Shown here: positions 1-28,874 of the stretch, one piece after another
How positions within the stretch are numbered: position 1 is the stretch's first letter
Layout: every line of letters starts with the position of its first letter
Assembly (NCBI RefSeq): GCF_002287235.1
Contig: NZ_LMVP01000068.1
Location: forward strand, 1 to 46,927
From: Methanosarcina spelaei
GTDB taxonomy: Archaea; Halobacteriota; Methanosarcinia; Methanosarcinales; Methanosarcinaceae
Direction: 5' to 3'
Length of the DNA: 46,927 bases
Position numbers and translations under genes: made by a program
Notes under the pieces: generated by a model
The model's input: the letters and a program-made list of their open reading frames with translations, nothing else
Database searches by the model: none
What the model was told of the DNA's origin: nothing

Positions 1-1116
1 TGTGGACATACCCTAGAGGATGTTGAAGTTGAAGCTTATGAGAAAAGACAGGTTTTTGACATTCCGCCTGTAAATCTTATTGTTACAGAACATCGAAGTC
101 AGATTAAGATCTGTCCTTGCTGTGGAAGATTAAATAAAGCTGAATTTCCAGAATCAGTAAATTCTCCAGTTCAATATAGCCGTAATATCTTAGCTTCAGC
201 AATTTACTTTAAAAATCACCATTTCATTCCTTACGAAAGGATTTCGGAATTGTTTAATGATGTAATGGGGATAAAAATTTGTTCTGCTACCATTATTAAA
301 GCAGAAAGAGAATGTTTCCAGAATCTTGAAGAATTTGAAAACCTAATTCGAGAAAAGGTAATAGCTTCTCCTGTTATCCATTGTGATGAAACTGGAATGA
401 AAGTTCAAGGAAAAAGACATTGGCTTCATGTAGCTTCTACTGACAAATACACCTGTTATTTTACTCATGCAAAAAGAGGATCCGAAGCTATTGATGCTAT
501 GGGAATTCTTCCAGAGTTTAAAGGGGTAGCAGTTCACGATGGATGGAAACCTTACAACAGTTATAATTGTGATCATGCTCTTTGCAATGTTCATCTCCAG
601 AGAGAACTTACTGGAATTGAAGAGAATTATAAACAGCAATGGGCTAAAGATATGAGTGAGCTGTTATCTGAAATGAAAAAGTATACTGATGAGTGCAAAG
701 AGCAGGTCAAAGATCTGGATTTTGAACAAGTTAAGGCATTAGAAAAAAGGTTCAATGCTGTAGTCGCGAAAGGAATTGAAGAAAATCCACCTTCTTTAAA
801 TCCTGAAAGACAAGGAAAACGTGGTAAGAATCCAAAAACCAAAGCAAGGAATCTGCTTGATAGGTTTATAGAACACAAAGACAAGATTCTGAGATTCCTG
901 ACAGACTTGAAAGTTCCGTTTGAGAATAATCAAGCAGAAAGAGATGTCAGGATGATGAAGCTACAACAGAAAACATCAGGAACTTTCAGAACTACACGGG
1001 GAGCGGAAGCTTTCTGCAGAATTAGAGCATATATTTCCACAATAAGAAAGAATGGTTTACCTGTTTTAGAGGGTATTCTCGCGGCGCTCAAAGGAGCGCC
1101 GCTAACTATACCCTGA
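1..1116 (+). CDS. IS66-family transposase (5'-truncated by window edge)
   Basis: The frame is open from base 1, so the ATG at 250 is only an internal Met; the gene starts upstream of the window. The first visible residues hold a cysteine motif (CPCCG near codon 37) typical of the IS66 zinc-finger domain. The DDE-type catalytic domain follows, with HCDETGMKVQGKRHWLHV as the first catalytic Asp region, VHDGWKPY as the second, and [14 protein letters not shown] near the C-terminus carrying the catalytic Glu region. The ending [12 protein letters not shown] is common in the family. No accessory IS66 ORFs are visible here. The frame has no stops, so this copy may be active. Confidence 0.92.
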   Translation, partial: CGHTLEDVEVEAYEKRQVFDIPPVNLIVTEHRSQIKICPCCGRLNKAEFPESVNSPVQYSRNILASAIYFKNHHFIPYERISELFNDVMGIKICSATIIKAERECFQNLEEFENLIREKVIASPVIHCDETGMKVQGKRHWLHVASTDKYTCYFTHAKRGSEAIDAMGILPEFKGVAVHDGWKPYNSYNCDHALCNVHLQRELTGIEENYKQQWAKDMSELLSEMKKYTDECKEQVKDLDFEQVKALEKRFNAVVAKGIEENPPSLNPERQGKRGKNPKTKARNLLDRFIEHKDKILRFLTDLKVPFENNQAERDVRMMKLQQKTSGTFRTTRGAEAFCRIRAYISTIRKNGLPVLEGILAALKGAPLTIP

Positions 1117-6730: not shown

Positions 6731-7105
6731 TTAAGATAGGTCTTCTCCCAGATACTTATCTATCAGAGCCCTGAACTTATGAATATCTATAGGCTTGGAG
6801 ACATAGTCCACGCAGCCCATTTCTATGAAATGTTCTTCACTACCTTTCATAGCATGGGCAGTAACCGCTATCACAGGGACATCTGCAGTCGCAGGATTTT
6901 TCTTAATTCGATCGAGAACCTCAAGTCCGTCCATTTTCGGTAACTGCATATCCAGCAGTATAATATCGAATTTTGTTTCAGCAAGACGCTCAAGAGCCTT
7001 TATTCCGTCCTCGGCTTTAGTTATACTATGTCCGTAGAATTCCAGAAGGTCCAGGATCAGTTCCATATTCATGGGATTATCTTCGACAATCAGGATTTTT
7101 TTCAT
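6731..7105 (-). CDS. Single-domain response regulator (CheY-like receiver)
   Basis: A stand-alone receiver domain of about 124 residues without an output domain. The acidic pocket (ILIVEDN), the phosphoacceptor Asp in DIILLDMQLPKMDG, the Thr in VIAVTAHAM and the Lys in YVSKPID are all present. The start is set at the second of two adjacent ATGs (7105), which puts AGAGG seven bases upstream; the first (7108) is possible. It overlaps the 3' end of the histidine kinase gene by about 30 bases, so the two are surely co-transcribed. It is likely a phosphorelay partner of that kinase. Confidence 0.92.
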   Translation of the reverse strand: MKKILIVEDNPMNMELILDLLEFYGHSITKAEDGIKALERLAETKFDIILLDMQLPKMDGLEVLDRIKKNPATADVPVIAVTAHAMKGSEEHFIEMGCVDYVSKPIDIHKFRALIDKYLGEDLS

Positions 7106-13987: not shown

Positions 13988-14166
13988 AGGAGATTCAATT
14001 TATTGTTGATTTCCCAGGCAAAACCTATGATTTTGACTACGTTTCGAAACTTTGGATTTTCCATTCCGAGACGTAAAACCTTTTGGCCTTAAAGGTCTAA
14101 ACAATAATATTGTCAAGTAGGCAATAAAATCCTAATAAAATAAAGAAATTTAAAAAAGGTATGACC

Positions 14167-15186
14167 ATGAGCGAGTTTACACTCAAAACGAGACTCTTAG
14201 CTGCCCTTGAAGGCAAGCCCGTTGACAAAGTACCTGTTTGCTCCGTAACCCAGACAGGGATCGTAGAACTTATGGACGAAGTTGGAGCTGCCTGGCCTGA
14301 AGCTCACACCAATCCTGAACTTATGGCAAAACTGGCAATCGCCAATTATGAACTTAGTGGACTTGAGGCTGTAAGGCTTCCCTACTGTCTGACAGTGCTT
14401 GTTGAAGCAATGGGCTGTCAAATCAATATGGGTACCAAAAACAGGCAGCCTTCTGTCATAGAACACCCATATCCAAAAAGCCTTGACGGCGCAGCCATCC
14501 CAGCAGACCTTCTGCAGAAAGGCAGAATTCCAGTCGTACTTGAAGCCATTAAGATTGTCAGGGAGAAAGTAGGTCCTGACGTGCCAATAATCGGAGGTAT
14601 GGAAGGCCCGATTACAGTTGCCTCCGACCTGATAAGTGTAAAATCCTTCATGAAATGGTCCATTAAGAAGACTGATCTCTTTGAACAGGCTCTTGATCTT
14701 GCCACAGAAGCTGCAATCGCTTACGCAAATGCGATGGTTGAAGCCGGTGCAGATGTTATCGCAATTGCAGACCCTGTCGCTTCCCCTGATCTCATGAGCC
14801 CTGACACATTTAAACAGTTCCTCCAGTCAAGGTTACAGAAGTTCTCCTCCAGTGTTAACTCCGTGACCGTACTCCACATCTGTGGTAAAGTTAACGCGAT
14901 CCTCAGCGACATGGCAGACTGTGGTTTCGAAGGCCTCAGCGTAGAAGAAAAGATCGGTAACGCAATTGAAGGAAAGAAGATAATTGGAGACAGGGCAAGA
15001 TTAGTAGGAAACGTTTCCAGTCCTTTCACTCTGCTGCCCGGACCTATTGACAAGATAAAAGCTGAAGCAAAAGTAGCTCTTGAAGGCGGAATCGATGTAC
15101 TTGCACCAGGCTGTGGTATTGCACCCATGACTCCTCTTGAAAACATCAAAGCAATGGTTGCAGCAAGAGACGAGTACTACGCCTGA
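14167..15186 (+). CDS. mtaA: Methylcobamide:coenzyme M methyltransferase MtaA
   Basis: Transfers the methyl group from methyl-Co(III) MtaC to coenzyme M in methanol-dependent methanogenesis. It is a uroporphyrinogen-decarboxylase-fold zinc enzyme. The zinc ligands are visible as His237 and Cys239 (LHICGK) and Cys316 (APGCGIAP). With the start at 14167 these numbers coincide exactly with the published M. barkeri MtaA residues and give the usual 339 residues, so I prefer this ATG over the one six bases upstream (14161). AGGT lies six bases ahead of it. The methylamine-specific paralog MtbA is the main alternative; the linked mtaCB and activase genes favour MtaA. Confidence 0.93.
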   Translation: MSEFTLKTRLLAALEGKPVDKVPVCSVTQTGIVELMDEVGAAWPEAHTNPELMAKLAIANYELSGLEAVRLPYCLTVLVEAMGCQINMGTKNRQPSVIEHPYPKSLDGAAIPADLLQKGRIPVVLEAIKIVREKVGPDVPIIGGMEGPITVASDLISVKSFMKWSIKKTDLFEQALDLATEAAIAYANAMVEAGADVIAIADPVASPDLMSPDTFKQFLQSRLQKFSSSVNSVTVLHICGKVNAILSDMADCGFEGLSVEEKIGNAIEGKKIIGDRARLVGNVSSPFTLLPGPIDKIKAEAKVALEGGIDVLAPGCGIAPMTPLENIKAMVAARDEYYA

Positions 15187-15513: not shown

Positions 15514-17133
15514 ATGAGAACAGGAGTTGCAATTGACCTCGGAACCAGCGGTTTTAGGGCCCAGAAAATTGACCTGGAGACCGGGGAGATTAAAAAAACC
15601 GTCATAACACTGAGAAATCCCCTACCCGGAGCAAACGTAATGGATCATCTCGATTTTGCAATCCATTACGGGCTTGACAAAGCTCACGGTCTTTCGGCAA
15701 CTGCGGTAAAAAATATTCTTGCTGAACTTGGAGTGAAACTGGCAGAAATGGAAAAATTTTCAATTTGCGGAAATCCAATTCAACTTTCCATCTTCCAGGG
15801 TATTCCAATCGACGACCTGGCATATGCCGGAGAGCGTAAAAAGCAAAAATATCATATAGAAGAGCAAAACAGGGATGCCCGCATAGTACCCCTGGCCGAA
15901 ATAGAAGGATTTGAAGAAGCTACAAATTGCAAACTATTTGTGCCCCCGTCAATCAAACACGAAGTCGGAGCCGATGCTCTTGCTCTTATTGTAAAAGCTG
16001 GCATGATTGAGAGTAATGAGATCGCAATTGCAACGGATTACGGCACAAATGCCGAAATGGCTCTTAAAGCAAACGGTATTATATATACAGGCTCGGCTGC
16101 TGCAGGTCCTGCTCTTGAAGGTCAGGAGATAGAGTGCGGGTCCATTGCTTCCCCTCACACCATCTGTGATGTGGAGTTTGAGGGAAATAACCTGCGCTGC
16201 TATGTACTCGATCGGGACATGAATACCATCAAGGGAGACCTTGTAAATCCTAAAACAGGGGAAGTAGTGGAAAAAGGTGAGATCACCGCAAAAGGCATTA
16301 CAGGCACTGGAGTTATTGCCCTTATAGAAACAGCTATGAGAAATAAACTAATTGTGCTGCCAAAAATTCAGACCCCTGATGGCATTATTCACCTTCAGGA
16401 CGGGGTAATATTTACTAATAAAGACCTTATCGCAGCAGGAAGGGCCATAGGAGCACTCCGGGCCGGGCATATTACTCTCTGTGCAGCTGCAGGCATAGAC
16501 ATGGAAGAACTACAGATCGCTCACATGTCAGGCGCTGCAGGCACTTATATGGACGCTGCAAAAGCCCATAAAGTGGGAATGATCCCTTATAATGCGAGTT
16601 ATGTTTCCCAGATAGGAAATACTTCTTTGATCGTTGCCAGGGAAATCCTGCTTTCCGAAGACAGGCTCTGGGAACTGCAGGCAATTGCAAAGGAAATTGT
16701 GGGCACTCATGTAATGTTTGCAACTTCCGAAGCTTTTAAAGAAGCTTATTTGCTGGAACTTGCTTACTGGAACGAAGGCATGGCTTTCAAGATGCTCCAG
16801 AAATTCCTGAAAAAGAAAAAACTGCCCATGATTGGTGAACCTTCCTCTATTCTCAAAATTGACCGCCAGGTTGAAAGAGATATTCCCGAACTCGGAGAAG
16901 AAGGGCTTGAAGTGCTTGAAAAAGTCGGAACTTACCTTACAATGGTAATTGAGGATTGTGAAGGCTGTCATAAGTGCGTAAAAGTCTGCCCTAACGGAGC
17001 CCTAAGAATGGATGACAAGGGAACTGTAAAAATAAGGACTGATCTCTGTGATGGTGCAAATTGCCAGCGTTGCCTGCACGCCTGTCCTGATGATAGATTT
17101 AAGTGGGAAAACCTTACCGTGGCAGGAGTATAA
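15514..17133 (+). CDS. RamA-family corrinoid-protein reductive activase
   Basis: ATP-dependent iron-sulfur activase that would reduce inactive Co(II) corrinoid on MtaC back to Co(I). The N-terminal AIDLGTSGFRAQ is an ASKHA-type phosphate loop, and the central part matches the DUF4445/RACo-like ATPase fold (ATDYGTNAEMAL, MSGAAGTYMDAAKA). The C-terminal domain carries two 4Fe-4S sites: Cys482, 485, 488, 492 and Cys512, 517, 520, 524. Its 539 residues match the length of RamA, which activates methylamine corrinoid proteins. The position directly after mtaA points to the methanol system, where a methyltransferase-activating protein (MAP) is known biochemically. A strong GGAGG lies before the ATG. 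Confidence 0.9.
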   Translation: MRTGVAIDLGTSGFRAQKIDLETGEIKKTVITLRNPLPGANVMDHLDFAIHYGLDKAHGLSATAVKNILAELGVKLAEMEKFSICGNPIQLSIFQGIPIDDLAYAGERKKQKYHIEEQNRDARIVPLAEIEGFEEATNCKLFVPPSIKHEVGADALALIVKAGMIESNEIAIATDYGTNAEMALKANGIIYTGSAAAGPALEGQEIECGSIASPHTICDVEFEGNNLRCYVLDRDMNTIKGDLVNPKTGEVVEKGEITAKGITGTGVIALIETAMRNKLIVLPKIQTPDGIIHLQDGVIFTNKDLIAAGRAIGALRAGHITLCAAAGIDMEELQIAHMSGAAGTYMDAAKAHKVGMIPYNASYVSQIGNTSLIVAREILLSEDRLWELQAIAKEIVGTHVMFATSEAFKEAYLLELAYWNEGMAFKMLQKFLKKKKLPMIGEPSSILKIDRQVERDIPELGEEGLEVLEKVGTYLTMVIEDCEGCHKCVKVCPNGALRMDDKGTVKIRTDLCDGANCQRCLHACPDDRFKWENLTVAGV

Positions 17134-17515: not shown

Positions 17516-17603
17516 TAAGTGCTTTAGTTTCCAGTATTAAGTGCTTTAGTTTCCAGTATTAAGTGCTTTAGTTTCCAGTATTAAGTGCTTTAGTTTCCAG
17601 TAT
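17516..17603. repeat. 22-bp tandem repeat, 4 perfect copies
   Basis: Four identical 22-bp units start at 17516, 17538, 17560 and 17582 and contain AAGTGCTTTAGTTTCCAG. The last copy abuts the 17-bp inverted repeat at 17602. Confidence 0.97.
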
Positions 17604-17663
17604 TAAGGCAAAATTTGGAGATACACCAAATAATATTTGATAGATACCAAATTTTGCCTTAAT
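17602..17663. repeat. Perfect 17-bp inverted repeat with 28-bp spacer
   Basis: ATTAAGGCAAAATTTGG (17602-17618) is exactly complementary to 17647-17663. The spacer carries a CACCAAAT motif, and an ATACCAAA motif overlaps the right arm. It lies about 380 bp upstream of the G3E GTPase start. It could be an RNA hairpin, an operator pair or a small mobile-element remnant. Confidence 0.85.
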
Positions 17664-17826
17664 AAACAGGATAATAAACAAACTGAGCAAACATTAATAA
17701 AACGAAAGAAAATGAATATAACAGTCAAAAAACAAAAATCGACAAATAGATTCCTGTGATATCTTAGAATCCGTAAAACTCAGTAAATTTGGGAATATAA
17801 AAAAGATATGGATGACAATAATTTGG

Positions 17827-17902
17827 ACATATACCAAAATTTAGTAATGGAAATGATAAATAGGATAAATAGGCCATCAAAAAAGTTTTCACATATACCA
17901 AA
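17827..17902 (+). promoter_or_regulatory. Two identical ACATATACCAAA boxes upstream of the G3E GTPase
   Basis: The 12-mer ACATATACCAAA occurs at 17827-17838 and 17891-17902. Related ACACCAAA and ATACCAAA motifs lie at about 17621-17630 and 17644-17651. Repeated boxes 64 bp apart upstream of one gene look like regulator sites. The regulator is not known. Confidence 0.35.
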
Positions 17903-18040: not shown

Positions 18041-19273
18041 ATGGAAGTAGTTATTGTTGGTGGCTTTTTGGGAAGCGGGAAGACCACAACTGTCATCAAT
18101 ATGGGCAAATACCTGGCAGAAAAAGGAAAAAAGGTCGCAATAATTGTTAACGAAATCGGAAAAATAGGTATCGATGGAGATATAGTAAAGAAATTCGGAT
18201 TCGATACAAAGGAAATCACAAACGGTTGCATATGTTGCACTCTAAAAATGGGATTGAAGACAGCAGTCAATGCCATTATGAAGGAATATGAGCCTGACAT
18301 TCTGATGATAGAACCCACAGGAATTGCTTTTCCGAGTTCCATAAAAAACGAATTCAAATTAATGAACTTGAGTGAGGAAGTTAAAGTTGCCCCTCTGGTA
18401 ACTCTGATAGATGGGAGCCGTTTCAAACACCTGATGAAGGAGGCAAAGAACTTTGCCATTCGGCAAATCGTAGATGCTGAAATCCTGGGTATAAATAAGG
18501 TGGATCTTATTGACACGCTTCAAACTCCTATTCTTGAAGTTTCAATCCAGCAACTGAACCCTGATGCAAGAGTGGTCCTGCTTTCAGGGAAAGATACCGG
18601 AAAAAAATTTGAAAACTTTATGCAGATGGTTCTTCCTGGTAACATGGAAGTTACGGAAAAAATTAATACAGCAGAAGAAAAAACCGATATTAAGGCACAG
18701 GAATACGAGTCTTCAATTGCCGCATCCGGAGTCGGCAGCTATGCCGCAGAATTTTCGATCGAAAGTAAAGAAGCCGTAAGCAAGGAGACTGCCAGGGAAA
18801 TTACAACTCAAGTAATGAGCAAAATAAAAGAAAAGGCTCTCGAACTAAACCCCGAATTTTTAGGACATATAAAACTTTTCCTGGATAACGGGTCTGAAAC
18901 TGTGAAACAGAGCATTACTATTTATTATGAAGAGCCTCAGGAAGATATTTTCAAATCAAAAGAAGGAACTGCACCAAGATTTAAAGTTCTTTCAGCGGTC
19001 TCAAATATCGAGAAGGAAGCCATTAAAAGTGCAGTCAACAGTTCGGTACAGGAAGTTTTTGAAAGTATGGGGATAGAAGTACATAAGGTCGACCACAGCC
19101 ATACTCATGATCACGAACATGGACATCACTATGGTCATGATGAAGAACACAATTGCTACCACGAGCATGATCACCATGAACATCGAGTAGATGAAATACA
19201 TGAGCATCGAGTAGATGAAATACATGAGTACCAGAGATTATGTGATTATCAGAGGTCGCATAAAGTAAAATAA
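18041..19273 (+). CDS. COG0523/CobW-type G3E GTPase with CxCC motif and His-rich tail
   Basis: A 410-residue putative metallochaperone GTPase. It has the Walker A motif GGFLGSGKTT at the N-terminus, a CxCC metal site (CICC, residues 63-66), a Walker B/switch region IEPTGIAFP, and the guanine motif INKVDL. The second half is not a typical CobW C-domain; it carries the segment NPEFLGHIKLFLDNGSET shared with the paralog at 20023. The C-terminus is a His/Asp/Glu-rich tail (HSHTHDHEHGHHYGHDEEH and on), ending with a 24-bp in-frame duplication (19181-19228). Family members load Zn, Co or Ni into client enzymes. Its place between mtaA/activase and mtaCB suggests a methanol-pathway client (inference). 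Confidence 0.88.
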   Translation: MEVVIVGGFLGSGKTTTVINMGKYLAEKGKKVAIIVNEIGKIGIDGDIVKKFGFDTKEITNGCICCTLKMGLKTAVNAIMKEYEPDILMIEPTGIAFPSSIKNEFKLMNLSEEVKVAPLVTLIDGSRFKHLMKEAKNFAIRQIVDAEILGINKVDLIDTLQTPILEVSIQQLNPDARVVLLSGKDTGKKFENFMQMVLPGNMEVTEKINTAEEKTDIKAQEYESSIAASGVGSYAAEFSIESKEAVSKETAREITTQVMSKIKEKALELNPEFLGHIKLFLDNGSETVKQSITIYYEEPQEDIFKSKEGTAPRFKVLSAVSNIEKEAIKSAVNSSVQEVFESMGIEVHKVDHSHTHDHEHGHHYGHDEEHNCYHEHDHHEHRVDEIHEHRVDEIHEYQRLCDYQRSHKVK

Positions 19274-19545
19274 AAAACATCTGACTAGGGTTAACACATC
19301 TCGATGGTCAGATTACGAAAAACTGCATCTTGACCCAAAGTTTCGGTCAGAATTTAGTAAGTAATATCATAAGAAATTGTAACTCAACGACTGATAAGCT
19401 TTCCAGTTATGTAAAACCCAATATAATTTAATTTTCTTTAACCTCCAAAAACAGCAAGGTGGTTTCTGTGCTCAGGTTTCCTCCAGACCGTTTACCCGGA
19501 AACCACCATATCTTCTTAAGTGTATTGAGTAAAGTTGTAATAGAT

Positions 19546-19598
19546 GAGCAAAGTTATAATATATGAGCAAAGTTATAATATATGAGCAAAGTTATAAT
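19546..19598. repeat. 19-bp tandem repeat, about 3 copies
   Basis: GAGCAAAGTTATAATATAT at 19546 and 19565, with a near copy starting at 19584 and a degenerate one just upstream (about 19526). AT-rich and noncoding. Confidence 0.88.
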
Positions 19599-19744
19599 GA
19601 ATAAATTATAATATATGAATAAAATTATGATATGCTCAAATACTTGCTGTTTTACGATTTTTCATGCTAGTGCAGCATATCGAATACCTGTAGCCACATG
19701 CTTTCAGCCGAAGGTTCTAATAATGTTTTTGATTGCTTGTAGAG

Positions 19745-19821
19745 TTCAACCTAAATATGTGACCTCTTATGAAACATGTAACTTCAACCTGAATATGTGA
19801 CCTCTTAATGAAATATGTAAC
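19745..19821. repeat. 38-bp tandem duplication
   Basis: Two adjacent copies, starting at 19745 and 19783, share TTCAACCT, AATATGTGACCTCTTA and ATGTAACTT with a few substitutions and one inserted base. They lie about 200-280 bp upstream of the second G3E GTPase. Confidence 0.85.
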
Positions 19822-20022
19822 TTTTTAACATGAGATAAAAATCGCTTTCCTTTATCTTCAAACTGTTTCTAGAGAACGGATTATAGATAAAGAAATATAT
19901 TTAAGAATAGAGAAATTGACAGTTATATCCCTGAGCTAAAGGTAAAGTTTTATACTAATTTTATAAAAGAAAGTGACAGAAATAGAAAACAGTAGAAAAC
20001 GGTAGAAAACGGAGGAAAAAAA

Positions 20023-21219
20023 ATGGAAGTTATTGTTGTTGGAGGTTTCCTGGGAAGCGGGAAGACAACCACCATTATCAATATGGGTAAATACCTTGCA
20101 GAAAAAGGAAAAAAAGTTGCTATTATAGTGAATGAGATCGGGGAAGTCGGCATTGACGGAGATGTGATAAAAAGGTTCGGGTTCGATACAAAAGAGATCA
20201 CAAGTGGGTGCATCTGCTGTTCTCTGAAAGTAGGGTTAAGGGTAACAGTTACTTATCTTATAAATGAATTCAAACCTGACATTCTCATGATCGAACCTAC
20301 AGGAATAGCTTTCCCGAATATAATAAAGAAAGAAGTAGAACTCATGAATCTTGGCGAGCAGGTAAAAATCGCTCCTCTTGTGACCCTGATTGACGGCAGC
20401 CGTTTCAAGCATTTGATGAAAGAAGTAAAAGAATTTGCCATGAGACAGATTATTGATGCGGAAATTCTAGGGATAAATAAGATAGACCTGATAGAACCTA
20501 TCCGGCTTCCAATACTTGAAGCCTCGGTCCAGCAATTGAATCCGAAAGCCAGGGTGGTCCTGCTTTCAGGAAAAGATACAGGCGAGAGCTTTAAGAACTT
20601 CATGCAGTTAGTGCTTCCGGATCTTGAAAAGTTACCCGAAAAATCCATAAAAGCTGAAACAACGAAAGCTGAGATAACAGAAACCGGACCTTCTAAAGCC
20701 GAACTTTCTACGCCTCAGGAAACCGAGAGTTCGATAGAAGCCTCAAAAGTAGGCAGTTATTCTGCAGAGTTCGCGGTTGAAAACGGAAACCTGAGTACTG
20801 AGGCTGCAAGGAAATTAACAACCGAACTGATGAACACAGTAAAAGCGAAGGTGCTGCAATTAAATCCCGAATTTATAGGGCATATTAAGCTTTTCCTGGA
20901 CAATGGGTCAGAAACCGTAAAACAAAGCGTTACAGTATATTATGAAGAGCCCCAGGAAGATGTAATCAAATCAAAGGAAGGAGCAGCTCCTACTCTCAAG
21001 ATACTTTCAGCGGTCTCAAATGCTGACAAAGAAGCTGTTAAAGCCGCTGTGAATAGTTCGGTACATGAGGTCTTTGAGAGAAAGCAAATAAAAATAAGCA
21101 AAATCGAGCATGAACATAATCACGAACATGAACATAACCACGAACATGAACATAACCACGAACATAATCACCATGAAAAGCATAAGCATGGTGATCAGGA
21201 GGAAGAAATTAGTAAGTAA
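20023..21219 (+). CDS. COG0523/CobW-type G3E GTPase, second copy, CxCC and His-rich tail
   Basis: Close paralog of the gene at 18041 (398 residues). It shares Walker A GGFLGSGKTT, CICC at residues 63-66, IEPTGIAFP, INKIDL, the unusual C-terminal domain (SYSAEF, NPEFIGHIKLFLDNGSET, YYEEPQED, LKILSAVSNADKEAV) and a His-rich tail. That tail is built from three 18-bp repeats (21109-21162) encoding HEHNHE units, and differs from the first paralog's tail. A linker at about residues 205-240 is Thr/Lys/Glu-rich. The ribosome-binding site GGAGG precedes a run of A. It is convergent with the Msr regulator downstream. The presumed role is metal insertion into a methanol-pathway enzyme, unproven. Confidence 0.88.
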   Translation: MEVIVVGGFLGSGKTTTIINMGKYLAEKGKKVAIIVNEIGEVGIDGDVIKRFGFDTKEITSGCICCSLKVGLRVTVTYLINEFKPDILMIEPTGIAFPNIIKKEVELMNLGEQVKIAPLVTLIDGSRFKHLMKEVKEFAMRQIIDAEILGINKIDLIEPIRLPILEASVQQLNPKARVVLLSGKDTGESFKNFMQLVLPDLEKLPEKSIKAETTKAEITETGPSKAELSTPQETESSIEASKVGSYSAEFAVENGNLSTEAARKLTTELMNTVKAKVLQLNPEFIGHIKLFLDNGSETVKQSVTVYYEEPQEDVIKSKEGAAPTLKILSAVSNADKEAVKAAVNSSVHEVFERKQIKISKIEHEHNHEHEHNHEHEHNHEHNHHEKHKHGDQEEEISK

Positions 21220-21250: not shown

Positions 21251-21358
21251 TTGATCTTCAGTTTTAATTGATCTTTATGATCAACATTCATTGTTTTAAT
21301 TGATCTTCAGTTTTAACTGATCTTTATAGTCAACATTCATTGTTTTAATTGATCTTCG
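21251..21358. repeat. 49-bp tandem duplication between convergent genes
   Basis: Two copies start at 21251 and 21300 with three mismatches, and the first ten bases of a third follow at 21349. The second copy runs into the last codons and stop of the Msr regulator (stop at 21345-21347), so the repeat has probably set that gene's 3' end. Confidence 0.85.
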
Positions 21359-22118
21359 TAGAACGGTCTATATAATACTGAGCCAGCTCATTGCCCCACT
21401 CCAGGGCACCTGGAGTAAAACTCGTGATCTTCCTATGATCGAATTCTCCTTCTTTTCCGAAGAGTTTCAGCATCAGGAAGTTATCTGTAACCATGAAAGA
21501 AGAGGGCCTTATTTTGCCGGAATATATATAAAGTGACACTTTATTTTCAAGCAACACATTATATTCTTCTTCAAAATCATTTTTAAATCTGTTATACACT
21601 TTTTCATCAAGCATAAGGTGTACTTCGGCCCCGTTTTCCGCGCAGGTAGCATGAATCGACGGGCAATCAGGACAGAAATAAGAGTAAAAGGATTTTATAG
21701 TTTTTGAATCATTCAGTCTGTCACGCAAATACCCTGGAAACTCGAAAATGTGGTCAAGATCAGGCTCGTCCAGGTTACATTTTTCCAACATATCAATTTT
21801 CTTAATTAAATGTTTTGGAATAGGAGACCTATCATGTTTTGACCAGTAGTCCTTATTTCCGTCAAAAACGTCAAGAACGGATTTAAGAGGAAGCATTTTT
21901 TCAACGATTACTGCTCCTATATCCGAAAGTTGGTAGATACTTCCTTTCTGCACTATCATATCCATATCTTTCAGTTTTTTGATTTGAGGCATTAGAGCAC
22001 AGGAGTTTACGTTGAGAACTTCTTTTATCTCGTTAATATCCATCGGCCCGTTAGCTAACTGAACAAGAAGATTTTTTCTTTTTTCAGAGAAAAAAATCAG
22101 GTCTATAAGGGAACTCAT
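21345..22118 (-). CDS. Msr-family transcriptional regulator
   Basis: A 257-residue winged-helix plus FilR1/DUF1724 regulator, on the opposite strand from the surrounding methanol genes. The N-terminus SSLIDLIFFSEKRKNLLVQLANGP and recognition region NSCALMPQIKKLKDMD match the other Msr copies; YWSKHDRSPIPKHLI, LDEPDLDHIFEFP and SFTPGALEWGNELAQYYIDR mark the FilR1 domain. The start is at 22118 because all Msr paralogs begin at this point; the frame extends 15 codons upstream. The gene separates two intact G3E GTPases from a decayed third one. A 12-bp perfect palindrome lies about 145 bp upstream. Confidence 0.88.
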   Translation of the reverse strand: MSSLIDLIFFSEKRKNLLVQLANGPMDINEIKEVLNVNSCALMPQIKKLKDMDMIVQKGSIYQLSDIGAVIVEKMLPLKSVLDVFDGNKDYWSKHDRSPIPKHLIKKIDMLEKCNLDEPDLDHIFEFPGYLRDRLNDSKTIKSFYSYFCPDCPSIHATCAENGAEVHLMLDEKVYNRFKNDFEEEYNVLLENKVSLYIYSGKIRPSSFMVTDNFLMLKLFGKEGEFDHRKITSFTPGALEWGNELAQYYIDRSTKIN

Positions 22119-23296
22119 GTTTATCAGCTTCCAATTACTCATACATAATCTAAATCGGAACAAATTCGCCAGAATTTACTCCTAAAATCTACCACGATCA
22201 TGAAGCAGCACAGTTTCAGCCTTTAGTCAAGAGATGATGGAGTAAAAGCGTTTCATATCAACGATACGTATCGCGTTAATCAGTATTAGAAGCAATTAAG
22301 ATTTTATCATTGCTTATTTGGACCCTGTTCAGACATATATTCGTGTGTCAATGATAAAACGTTCTTGCCTTAAAAACGGAGAATAATGACTCTTCGTTGT
22401 TTTGTGTGGATATCCTCATAATGTCCTCATAAAAACCAAGGCGGTCTTGAATTGAAAATTATCTTATCCATAGAGAATGGCGAAGAGCCGAAATAATTTT
22501 CAGCCAGAAATAAATTAATGTTGTGAAGATTATATTTACTTTCTGATAATGCATAATATATATTGTAGAGATAATATTTAAAGTATATTGAAAAAGAAAG
22601 CTCTTTTAGAGAGGCTATCAAATTACTCTAAAAAATCCAGATCTAATTTAACAACCGTTTTTTGTGAAGATCTCCTATGTGTGTTCTTATCTCTAACCAG
22701 TTCTATGCTATTTTACTAGCAATCCAATCTAAGAAAACAGATACGTCCACGAATAGTGAAATAGAAGGTAAGTTTTTATCAAAATTCTAATTTGAAAACC
22801 TCTTATATTTATGCCGAATATTACAAGTGCTATTGACCTGTAAGCAGGGTCAATCTCTTCAAAGCTCTGGATACTCAGGACTCCTTTAAATATGCAAATC
22901 AAGCCTTCAAATTTTTAATGCCCTTAAATATTTAATGACTTATTTTTTTCGAATCTACATAATTTTATTATCCCTCTTGTAGTATTGGAAATATAACATG
23001 TTGGAAATTCAGGTAAGCATGAAATTTAAGGAAAAGCTTGTTTTTAAAAGGGGAAAATATTACATGTCAATAAAAAAACAATGACGGTTAAGCTATATAC
23101 AATTGAGAGAATATCTAATTGATAATCAGAGAGCCAAAATAAGTAATAATCTCTGGAGATAAATCCTGAAAAAACTCCTAAACCCCAGTTACAGTTTCAT
23201 GGCAATGTCTCGTCATTTTTTCGACATTCTGTAGAGGCATTGCCATTATCCAGAGATTGATTCGGACTCTGCTTAACTTATGGAAGGTGTAAAGGC
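22119..23296. other. Divergent 1.2 kb intergenic region
   Basis: AT-rich, between the Msr regulator (minus) and the decayed G3E gene (plus). It contains the palindrome at 22262, an 11-bp inverted repeat TTTTATCATTG (22302-22312 with 22349-22359), and a 9-bp inverted repeat ATGGCAATG (23199-23207 with 23238-23246) about 50 bp before the G3E start. The 64-codon minus frame at 22427-22621 looks like chance. Confidence 0.55.
22262..22273. promoter_or_regulatory. 12-bp palindrome upstream of the Msr gene, possible operator
   Basis: CGATACGTATCG is a perfect 12-bp palindrome about 145 bp upstream of the Msr regulator's start, in an otherwise AT-rich region. It could be a regulator site, perhaps autoregulatory. 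There is no second copy in the window to support it. Confidence 0.3.
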
Positions 23297-23965
23297 ATGA
23301 AATGTATACTAATCGGAGGTTTCCCGGAAAGCGGGAAAACCACACTGATAAGAAAGCTCGTCGAACACCTGGGAAAACAGGGGCAGAAAGTAGCAGTTAT
23401 GGTTAACGAGATCGAAGAAATAGGGATCAATGATACTATCTCAAAAGGAGAGGTTGAAACCAGGGAAATTACAAGTGACTGTGTCTACTTTACCCTGAAA
23501 ATCAGTATGGAACACACCTTGAGAAGTCTCATTTCATCTTATAGTCCGGACACTATTATAATAGAACCCACAGGAATAGCTTTCCCTGGGCAAATAAAAA
23601 AAAATATTGAGAATATGGGAATCCCGGGAATAACTTTTGCCCCAATAGTGAATCTTGTGGATGCTGGCCAACTGAGTCAAGAGACAGGCAAGCCGCAAAA
23701 TTTCATGAAAAATCAGGTAGGTGAGGCTGAGATCCTGGGCATTAATAAAGTTGAACTGATAAACAATCGTGAAGAGCTCCTGGAAATCTGCCTGTTCCTG
23801 CGCAAATTAAACCCTAAAGCAAGAATGATTCATTTTTCGGCTCGTCACGGAGGAGAAAATTTTGACAAATTGCTCGAGTTGCTTGAAGAAAACAACAGGA
23901 GAAAAGTGACTCTAGGCAAGAAAAACTCAATTCAAATGTCTGGAGTTTCGGTTTGTTCATCCTAA
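23297..23965 (+). CDS. Truncated, degenerate G3E GTPase (third COG0523 copy)
   Basis: This 222-residue frame aligns with the N-terminal GTPase domain of the paralogs at 18041 and 20023. The P-loop (GGFPESGKTT), IEPTGIAFP and GINKVEL remain, but the CxCC metal site is destroyed (CVYF in its place) and the guanine motif is NKVE. The frame stops just after the GTPase domain; the missing C-terminal half survives as fragments downstream. It is either a decaying gene or a GTPase domain that has lost metal-binding ability. Confidence 0.75.
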   Translation: MKCILIGGFPESGKTTLIRKLVEHLGKQGQKVAVMVNEIEEIGINDTISKGEVETREITSDCVYFTLKISMEHTLRSLISSYSPDTIIIEPTGIAFPGQIKKNIENMGIPGITFAPIVNLVDAGQLSQETGKPQNFMKNQVGEAEILGINKVELINNREELLEICLFLRKLNPKARMIHFSARHGGENFDKLLELLEENNRRKVTLGKKNSIQMSGVSVCSS

Positions 23966-24893: not shown

Positions 24894-25448
24894 ATGGAGC
24901 ATACAATAACTATAGAGAATGTGGTGGCATCCACCACCCTGGCGGAAGAGTTCGACCTGCAGAAGATTGAGGCAGGGCTGGAGAAAGCAGAATATAATAA
25001 AGCGAAATTCCCTGGCCTGGTCTACAGAATTGAGAGTCCAAAGGCTGCTTTTCTAATTTTCACCTCCGGAAAAGTAGTATGTACCGGAGCTAAGACTGTC
25101 AAAAATGCTAATATGGCCATAATCAATCTGGCTAACACGCTCAGATCCATTGGCTGTGAGAAAATAAATCCAGAACCTGAGGTTCATATTCAGAATATTG
25201 TAGCCACCGCTGATTTGGAAACTAACCTGAACCTGAATACCATTGTTATAGCCTTTGGTATGGAAAACGTAGAGTACGAACCAGAGGTATTTCCCGGGCT
25301 TGTTTACAGGCTCGGGGACCCCAAGATAGTAGTGCTAATATTCAGCTCTGGCAAACTGGTGATCACAGGCGGCAAGTCTCCCGAAGATTGCGAGAAGGGA
25401 CTGCAGATTATAAAGAAAGAGTTTGATAACTTAGGACTTCTTTATTGA
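24894..25448 (+). CDS. tbp: TATA-box-binding protein (TBP paralog)
   Basis: A complete archaeal TBP of 184 residues with the two-fold repeat of the saddle fold. Repeat 1 covers about residues 5-92 ([37 protein letters not shown]) and repeat 2 about 96-182 ([47 protein letters not shown]). The first repeat has unusual changes ([24 protein letters not shown]), so it looks like a diverged paralog rather than the housekeeping TBP. Methanosarcina species are known to carry several TBPs. Its place just upstream of mtaCB hints at a role in expressing these genes, which is inference. Confidence 0.93.
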
Positions 25449-26698: not shown

Positions 26699-27475
26699 AT
26701 GTTGGATTTGAAACTGGAAGACATCGATGGCATATTAGTACGCTACAACGTCGCCCTCGAAAAGGAAATGACCCCTGATGAAGCCGCAGAAGAGCTTTAT
26801 CCAAAAGACGAACTCATCTATCCTGTTGCAAAAGCAATCTATGAGGGAGAAGAGGATGACGTAGTTGACGCACTCCAGGCTGCAATCGATGCAGGCAAAA
26901 AGCCAATCGCCCTTATCGATGATGCCCTGATGGTAGGAATGGGAGTTGTAACCCAACTCTACGATGAAGGTATCATTTTCCTCCCGAACGTTATGATGTC
27001 CGCTGATGCCATGCTTGCAGGAATCGACTTCTGTAAGAGCCAGACCACCGAAGTACCCGAGCCAAGGGGCAAGGTTGTCTGCCATGTTGCAGAGGGCGAC
27101 GTCCATGACATCGGAAAGAACATTGTTGCTGCCCTTCTGAGAGCAAACGGCTACGAGGTAATTGACCTTGGAAGAGATGTTCCTGTAGACGAAGTAATCG
27201 CTGCAGTTGAAAAAGAGAAGCCAATGATGCTCACAGGTACTGCTCTTATGACAACCACCATGTATGCATTCAAGGAAGTTAACGACAAGCTCCTTGAGAA
27301 GGGAATAAAGATCCCATTCGCATGTGGTGGCGGTGCTGTGAACCAGGACTTCGTGTCTCAGTATGAACTTGGAGTCTATGGTGAAGAAGCTGCAGATGCC
27401 CCCAAGATTGCTGACGCAATCGTTGCAGGTACTAAAGATATCACAGCATTAAGAGAGGAATTCCACAAACACTGA
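26699..27475 (+). CDS. mtaC: Methanol corrinoid protein MtaC
   Basis: Carries the corrinoid that accepts the methyl group from methanol. It has an N-terminal helical cap domain (about 1-90) and a C-terminal Rossmann-like B12 domain. The cobalt-binding motif GDVHDIGKN has His136, the same number as the lower-ligand His of M. barkeri MtaC. TGTALMTTTMYA and PFACGGGAVN form the rest of the corrinoid pocket. The 258-residue length is typical. GGAGG lies seven bases before the ATG, and mtaB follows after 13 bases, so the two are one operon and form the MtaBC complex. Confidence 0.97.
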   Translation: MLDLKLEDIDGILVRYNVALEKEMTPDEAAEELYPKDELIYPVAKAIYEGEEDDVVDALQAAIDAGKKPIALIDDALMVGMGVVTQLYDEGIIFLPNVMMSADAMLAGIDFCKSQTTEVPEPRGKVVCHVAEGDVHDIGKNIVAALLRANGYEVIDLGRDVPVDEVIAAVEKEKPMMLTGTALMTTTMYAFKEVNDKLLEKGIKIPFACGGGAVNQDFVSQYELGVYGEEAADAPKIADAIVAGTKDITALREEFHKH

Positions 27476-27488
27476 GGAGGGAGCAAAA

Positions 27489-28874
27489 ATGGTAAAAAAA
27501 TACACTTCAATGGCTTACGCTAACGCAGATGAACTAATTTTCGGAAATTCAAAGTTCCCTGTAAAAGCAGGGCTTGGCCTTGAAATTGGTGCCGGTTACA
27601 CGACTCCCGAAGTAAACTACGCCCCAAGGCCTGGAGCCGGTGCATCCAAAGAAAAACTCATAAAAGAGTATGAAAGGATCACCACCGACATTATGGCAAG
27701 GATGGTCCAGATCGGAGCTCCTTCTGTTGTTCTTGAAACTGAACACGTTCAGCAGATGTCCAACAACCCCACCTGGGGAGGAGCTGTTGCACATGCCCAG
27801 AAGACCATCATGGAAGAATACCATGACGAATATGGCATAAAGTGTGCACTTCGCCACACAATTGGTGATATCCGTGAAGACCGTGACTACCTCCAGCTCA
27901 GAGGAGACAAGTACAGCACCTTTATGGAAGCCTTTGAAGAAGTTGCCAACAATGGTGCAGACCTGCTTGCAGTTGAATCAATGGGCGGTAAGGAAGTCTT
28001 CGACTATTCTATTCTGAGAAACGACACTGCAGGTATTCTCTTCGGTATCGGTGTGCTCGGTAGCATGGACATGGAAATGGTCTGGTCCGACATTGCAGAT
28101 GTTGCAAAGAAGACCGGAACTGTAGCTTCTGGTGACACAGACTGTGCCCAGGCAAACACTGCAATGTTCATTGCAGGTGGTCTGCTTGACAAGAACCTTG
28201 CCCACACAACTGCAATTGTTGCAAGGGCAATCTCTGCAGCAAGATCCCTCTGTGCATATGAAGCCGGTGCAGTAGGCCCTGGAAAGGACTGTGGTTATGA
28301 GAACAGCATCATAAAGTCCATTGCAGGTGTGCCAATTGCTCAGGAAGGCAAGACCTCAACCTGTGCCCACTCTGATCTGATGGGTAACATTGTCATGCAG
28401 TGCTGTGACCTCTGGTCCAACGAATCAGTTGAATACCATGGTGAATTCGGCGGTACCACTGTTCAGTGCTGGTCCGAGACCCTTGCATACGACTGTTCCA
28501 TGATGAACGTTGCACTTAAAACCGGAAAAGCAAAGGATCTCAGAGACATTCTCGTGCTCTCGGACAAATACAGAGACCCGCAGGGCTATGTGCTTGCCTA
28601 CGACAATGCCTACAAGGTAGGGCAGGCAATCGCAAAGGACGGGGAGAACAACTATCTCCGTTCAAAGAACGCAGCAATCGAATGTTGCAACATCATCGAA
28701 GAAGGTACCAACTCCGGCAAGCTCAGACTTACAAGATTCGAAACCAATGCTCTTGCAAAGGTTAAGGCTGACCTTGAAGCTCTCACCGACGATGCTGACA
28801 AGTTCATGAGCGACAACCTGACAAAGTTCAAACAAGAAGTTGCAGTTTTCAAACTCGAAAACTACGGGCTCTAA
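27489..28874 (+). CDS. mtaB: Methanol:corrinoid methyltransferase MtaB
   Basis: Zinc enzyme that activates methanol and methylates the Co(I) corrinoid of MtaC. It has 461 residues, a TIM-barrel type. The zinc ligands known in M. barkeri (Glu164, Cys220, Cys269) are found here shifted by one as Glu163 (AVESMGGKE), Cys219 (GDTDCAQAN) and Cys268 (GPGKDCGYEN). A strong GAGGAGGG ribosome-binding site lies in the short gap after mtaC. Codon use is that of a highly expressed gene. Methanosarcina usually has several mtaCB isozyme pairs; which one this is cannot be told from sequence alone. Confidence 0.97.
   Translation: MVKKYTSMAYANADELIFGNSKFPVKAGLGLEIGAGYTTPEVNYAPRPGAGASKEKLIKEYERITTDIMARMVQIGAPSVVLETEHVQQMSNNPTWGGAVAHAQKTIMEEYHDEYGIKCALRHTIGDIREDRDYLQLRGDKYSTFMEAFEEVANNGADLLAVESMGGKEVFDYSILRNDTAGILFGIGVLGSMDMEMVWSDIADVAKKTGTVASGDTDCAQANTAMFIAGGLLDKNLAHTTAIVARAISAARSLCAYEAGAVGPGKDCGYENSIIKSIAGVPIAQEGKTSTCAHSDLMGNIVMQCCDLWSNESVEYHGEFGGTTVQCWSETLAYDCSMMNVALKTGKAKDLRDILVLSDKYRDPQGYVLAYDNAYKVGQAIAKDGENNYLRSKNAAIECCNIIEEGTNSGKLRLTRFETNALAKVKADLEALTDDADKFMSDNLTKFKQEVAVFKLENYGL

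Follow-up and report, generated by a model that had tools for sequence, protein, structure and literature searches.

Two neighbouring genes in the methanol cluster of Methanosarcina spelaei, here called G3E1 and G3E2, are a real, conserved and methanol-linked pair of COG0523 GTPases that is divided by its predicted regulation, as judged from upstream sequence: a ZntR-type operator lies before copy 1 only. We rate it at somewhat better than even that both are zinc-handling proteins helping to supply zinc to the methanol:CoM methyltransferase system, in a role that is most likely helpful rather than essential and is probably needed only under zinc limitation. The window, meaning the whole 46,927-bp stretch of DNA that was analysed, contains the following genes and remnants.

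14161-15186, + strand: mtaA, methylcobamide:CoM methyltransferase (NF040654, 516 bits, cut-off 400)
15514-17133, + strand: RamA/RamM-type corrinoid activase (TIGR04270, 783 bits)
18041-19273, + strand: G3E1, COG0523/G3E GTPase copy 1, 410 aa, with CICC and a His tail; zinc box upstream
20023-21219, + strand: G3E2, COG0523/G3E GTPase copy 2, 398 aa, with CICC and a His tail; no zinc box
21345-22163, - strand: FilR1/Msr-type transcription regulator (PF08350)
23297-23965, + strand: G3E3, decayed third GTPase, with the P-loop altered to GFPESGKT, CxCC changed to CVYF and an in-frame stop after 222 aa
24069-24580, + strand: C-terminal-domain fragments of the decayed third copy (duplicated fragment)
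24894-25448, + strand: TATA-binding protein (TBP) gene (PF00352)
26699-27475, + strand: mtaC, methanol corrinoid protein (NF040655)
27489-28874, + strand: mtaB, methanol:corrinoid methyltransferase, a zinc enzyme (NF040651)

Motifs of the GTPase pair

Both proteins match the Pfam cobW family (PF02492) above its cut-off, G3E1 at E 7.9e-41 and G3E2 at E 1.5e-37, and both carry every hallmark that the original prediction had read in them: the P-loop GGFLGSGKT at residues 7-15, CICC at residues 63-66, NKxD at residues 152-155, and a His-rich tail, with 19 (G3E1) and 15 (G3E2) histidines in the final 70 residues. The motifs are kept in relatives, and across 72 aligned sequences the P-loop core, the three cysteines of the GCxCC motif and His287 of the C-terminal domain are invariant, the decayed third copy alone having lost the cysteines. 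A long His tail occurs mainly in Methanosarcina and most relatives from other genera are short-tailed, so that the conserved trait is the CxCC and not the tail. A predicted model of the GTPase has two domains (mean pLDDT 81); its CxCC region is of low confidence (ten-residue blocks at 53-63), and for this reason we make no claim about the metal site.

Gene neighbourhood and the activase

Profile matches bear out the predicted placement of the pair between mtaA/activase and mtaCB, in the gene order listed above, and add three features between the pair and mtaCB that had gone unmentioned: the FilR1/Msr-type regulator, the decayed third GTPase and the TBP gene, which lies within the methanol cluster in G002, G014 and G029 as well. 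The pair also shows the trait of COG0523 subfamily 13, co-localisation with corrinoid methyltransferase genes. At two inspected loci of a paralog clade around L138/L057 there were no methyltransferase neighbours.

G3E2 is the copy represented across the family, normally right behind the activase. Where G3E1 is lacking, most genomes have no more than about 150 bp between the activase stop and the GTPase start, and one group close to M. acetivorans has gaps of 436-631 bp; the position of mtaA varies among genomes, and mtaCB is usually downstream. That activase and GTPase are the most constant gene pair is what would be expected if the GTPase served the activase (RamM), either maturing or regulating this iron-sulfur protein or gating its action on MtaC, much as MeaB is the G3E partner of the corrinoid enzyme methylmalonyl-CoA mutase. 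It likewise counts against zinc delivery that the tightest neighbour is an iron-sulfur protein and not a zinc enzyme. The pairing moreover holds beside other methyltransferases, since in more distant relatives the GTPase lies near an activase together with an Mts-like fused protein (L143) or a pyrrolysine cluster (L135). However, the L135 and L143 GTPases fall in a separate clade of the tree, the Methanococcoides GTPase has mtaCB close by but is separated from the activase gene, and service to the activase leaves both the CxCC and the zinc boxes of G3E1 unexplained; we regard it as unlikely.

Two further elements of the window were seen. An inverted repeat, GGTGGTTTC...GGAAACCACC, at 19460-19520 between G3E1 and G3E2, readable also in G002 and G015, is a possible terminator or RNA element, and an Rfam match to PYLIS_5 (the pyrrolysine insertion sequence of a transposase) at window positions 1-64 is cut by the window start. 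Neither the window nor the importer locus described below yielded a riboswitch.

Co-occurrence with methanol genes

Of 86 Methanosarcinaceae genomes of at least 90% completeness, 77 carry the methanol-type GTPase together with mtaB and 7 lack both, as anticipated if the GTPases co-occur with mta genes. Six of the 7 have neither gene, and in the seventh, G096, mtaB is missing and the sole counterpart of the GTPase is a paralog with 33% identity. In G011 mtaB occurs but the GTPase does not, and in G095 the GTPase lies at a contig end and mtaB, which was not seen, is possibly hidden by the contig break. Fisher's test, uncorrected for kinship, gives p 1.2e-8, or 4.1e-7 if G096 is counted as GTPase-positive. 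G3E2 and mtaB are jointly absent in four separate places (G005, G078, G096 and the genus g4), and the mtaB-less G005, G078 and G096 retain RamA-like (46-47%) and MtbA-like (45%) proteins; the GTPase thus follows the methanol system and not corrinoid methyltransfer generally. Methanol-type MtaA and activase stand beside mtaB in all eight further genomes checked, and because MtaA, MtaB and activase co-occur, phyletic profiles cannot pick the client among the three.

Predicted regulation by zinc

The gap between zntR and znuA in G015 contains two boxes of the form TTTGG-N7-CCAAA, and the zntR product there has DtxR-type domains. From its gene order we take G015 to be M. acetivorans and its GTPase pair to be MA4381/MA4382, which would make G3E1 the ortholog of MA4381 and G3E2 that of MA4382. 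A matrix trained solely on 21 znuA-upstream sites from 11 genomes was then applied to the GTPase genes and gave three sites before G3E1 in the window.

17614-17630, + strand: ZntR-type box TTTGGAGATACACCAAA, 427 bp before the G3E1 start codon, matrix score 20.8
17822-17838, + strand: ZntR-type box TTTGGACATATACCAAA, 219 bp before the G3E1 start codon, matrix score 19.8
17886-17902, + strand: weak third box TTTTCACATATACCAAA, score 6.7, with a similar position (-150 to -157) in G002, G015 and G019

Strong boxes lie upstream of G3E1 in all 5 genomes that carry it, the other four scoring 18.0 (G002), 14.3 and 14.0 (G015), 15.5 and 14.5 (G003), and 15.4 and 15.3 (G019). Upstream of G3E2 in the same five genomes the matrix maximum is 4.6, with no strong box, so that the two copies differ in their predicted control. 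Upstream of mtaA, activase and mtaC in the window the maximum is 3.0, and a scan of 1.3 Mb of related DNA gave just 4 sites with scores of 16 or more. The znuA gene of M. spelaei is itself preceded by a box (score 20.1), and ZntR would be expected to bind the boxes at G3E1. Directly before the first of these, at 17520-17606, stand four tandem copies of a ~22-base unit, AAGTGCTTTAGTTTCCAGTATT.

The exact pattern TTTGGNNATANNCCAAA occurs only three times in the 5.09-Mb genome, twice before G3E1 and once before cbiQ-cbiO of a CbiMQO-type importer. Its ATA core was noticed partly on these sites, and it is therefore the matrix result that serves as the independent test; allowing one mismatch produced no more hits overall than a reversed control, so that only exact or matrix-scored sites are informative. 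At the importer locus (L058, G000:C201:6000-22000), boxes at 7100, 9210 and 9230 score 19.7, 22.3 and 22.3, with one box ahead of cbiQ and a pair ahead of cbiM in this CbiM/CbiQ/CbiO-type ECF transporter, and similar boxes adjoin a CbiO-like gene in G002, G019 and G003. The transporter is a candidate zinc importer of the ZntR regulon.

The same boxes bear on two other readings. The pair might be general zinc-starvation chaperones with many zinc-protein clients, their position in the methanol cluster reflecting co-expression: the box is common to G3E1 and znuABC, another paralog sits at a housekeeping locus (L057), and in Methanosalsum a tandem COG0523 pair with a strong ZntR-type box before each gene (L127, 9834-12475) stands alone, methanol genes not being nearby. 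Yet the absence of G3E2 along with mtaB in four places is unexpected for a general chaperone, and we find this reading improbable. The second takes up a suggestion of the original prediction, that the GTPases handle cobalt for the corrinoid. The founding member of the family, CobW, handles cobalt, and CobW-like chaperones for the MtaC corrinoid would fit the box at the CbiMQO-type importer, but the pair scores 88 and 75 bits on the curated CobW model TIGR02475, far under its cut-off of 332 bits, the box is held in common with znuABC, and corrinoid-using methylamine systems are kept where this GTPase is absent. We found no positive evidence for a cobalt role and consider it very improbable.

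Duplication, decay and probable natural deletion

G3E1 of the five genomes forms one clade (100/100) nested within the Methanosarcina G3E2 clade, so the duplicate arose within the genus. The third copy is interrupted by a stop at the same place in G002 and G014, and other Methanosarcina have an intact CVCC gene there. In UBA11020, about 311 bp past the activase, the sequence joins the G3E1-G3E2 gap directly; the whole block comprising G3E1 and its boxes is gone, likely by deletion, and its absence counts against zinc delivery.

A further loss is apparent in G011, which has intact mtaA, activase, mtaC and mtaB on one contig and no other GTPase homolog that we could find. Behind the activase there is only KVPKPENGHEHEHKEHTYCKK (L157, contig 15, 3733-3890), readable as the last ~21 codons of a GTPase tail, as if the gene had been deleted between intact ramM and mtaBC and its His-tail codons left behind. 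The MtaB of G011 keeps the motifs that we take to hold the zinc ligands. In addition, MtaA of Methanolobus (M. vulcani) is active when produced in E. coli in the absence of this GTPase (PMC6855144). These two cases leave a necessary role in metallating the methanol methyltransferases unsupported: MtaA can be active without the GTPase, which is perhaps dispensable for methanol use as well.

A proposed model for zinc delivery

The proposal that the GTPases metallate the methanol methyltransferases is partly supported, by gene linkage, by co-occurrence and by the zinc connection that the ZntR-type boxes at copy 1 suggest. We infer zinc as the metal, the identity of the client and a GTP-driven hand-over. 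The CxCC loop and P-loop would bind metal and GTP, and GTP hydrolysis would free zinc for a client in the methanol system, MtaB and/or MtaA being the likeliest. G3E2 would be the basic copy, tied to methanol and in most genomes forming one unit with the activase gene, and G3E1 a later duplicate placed under a ZntR-type zinc repressor alongside znuABC and the CbiMQO-type importer, and produced during zinc shortage; the His tails may be zinc stores. A fuller version, in which a two-tier delivery is dedicated to methanol, the linked GTPase serving normal supply and the starvation duplicate, with znuABC and CbiMQO, keeping MtaA/MtaB metallated, is offered tentatively, at a little less than an even chance. 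If zinc delivery is correct, the supply of zinc would be a point at which methane production from methanol is controlled, and an identified client would be gained for COG0523 subfamily 13.

Earlier work and comparison with known systems

The original prediction knew of no description of such a system, but both the gene linkage and the argument for zinc date from 2009. In that year Haas et al. (PMC2770081) described archaeal COG0523 subfamily 13 as grouped with mtaA, mtaB, mtaC and ramM, pointed out that both MtaA and MtaB depend on zinc, noted the presence of MA4382 in cells grown on methanol, and gave MA4381 candidate ZntR sites in common with znuABC, the last as a prediction only. The methanol/zinc link of this subfamily is hence already known as a proposal, for which we found no bench test in the literature. 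Our extensions are the regulatory split across five genomes, the co-loss, the natural deletions and the ECF importer with the same box; the naturally occurring two-copy, one-copy and deleted states are ready comparisons for a question dating from 2009. The title of PMC7895991 describes COG0523 proteins related to CobW as preferring zinc.

The pair has the G3E GTPase domain in common with CobW but falls below the cut-off of the CobW model and is without cobalt evidence. The nearest solved structure by sequence and fold is YjiA (PDB 1nij, 4ixm), the best match to the predicted model, aligned across both domains over 374 columns; in contrast to YjiA, the C-terminal domain here gives no match to Pfam CobW_C (PF07683), and the modelled domain orientation differs (rmsd about 20). 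The zinc metallochaperones ZNG1, ZigA and YciC are likewise CxCC-type G3E GTPases and share with copy 1 a predicted zinc-repressed gene, whereas the client of our pair would be the enzymes of methanogenesis. ZNG1 binds its client through an N-terminal extension ahead of the P-loop, a motif absent from the pair, in which the P-loop begins at residue 7, and on the curated ZigA model NF038288 the pair scores 90 and 82 bits, below the cut-off of 600. From COG0523 subfamily 13 (Haas et al. 2009; MA4381, MA4382, MM1072), which is the same family in the same mtaA/ramM/mtaC/mtaB neighbourhood with one copy predicted to be under ZntR, nothing essential differs in the window, which comes from another species.
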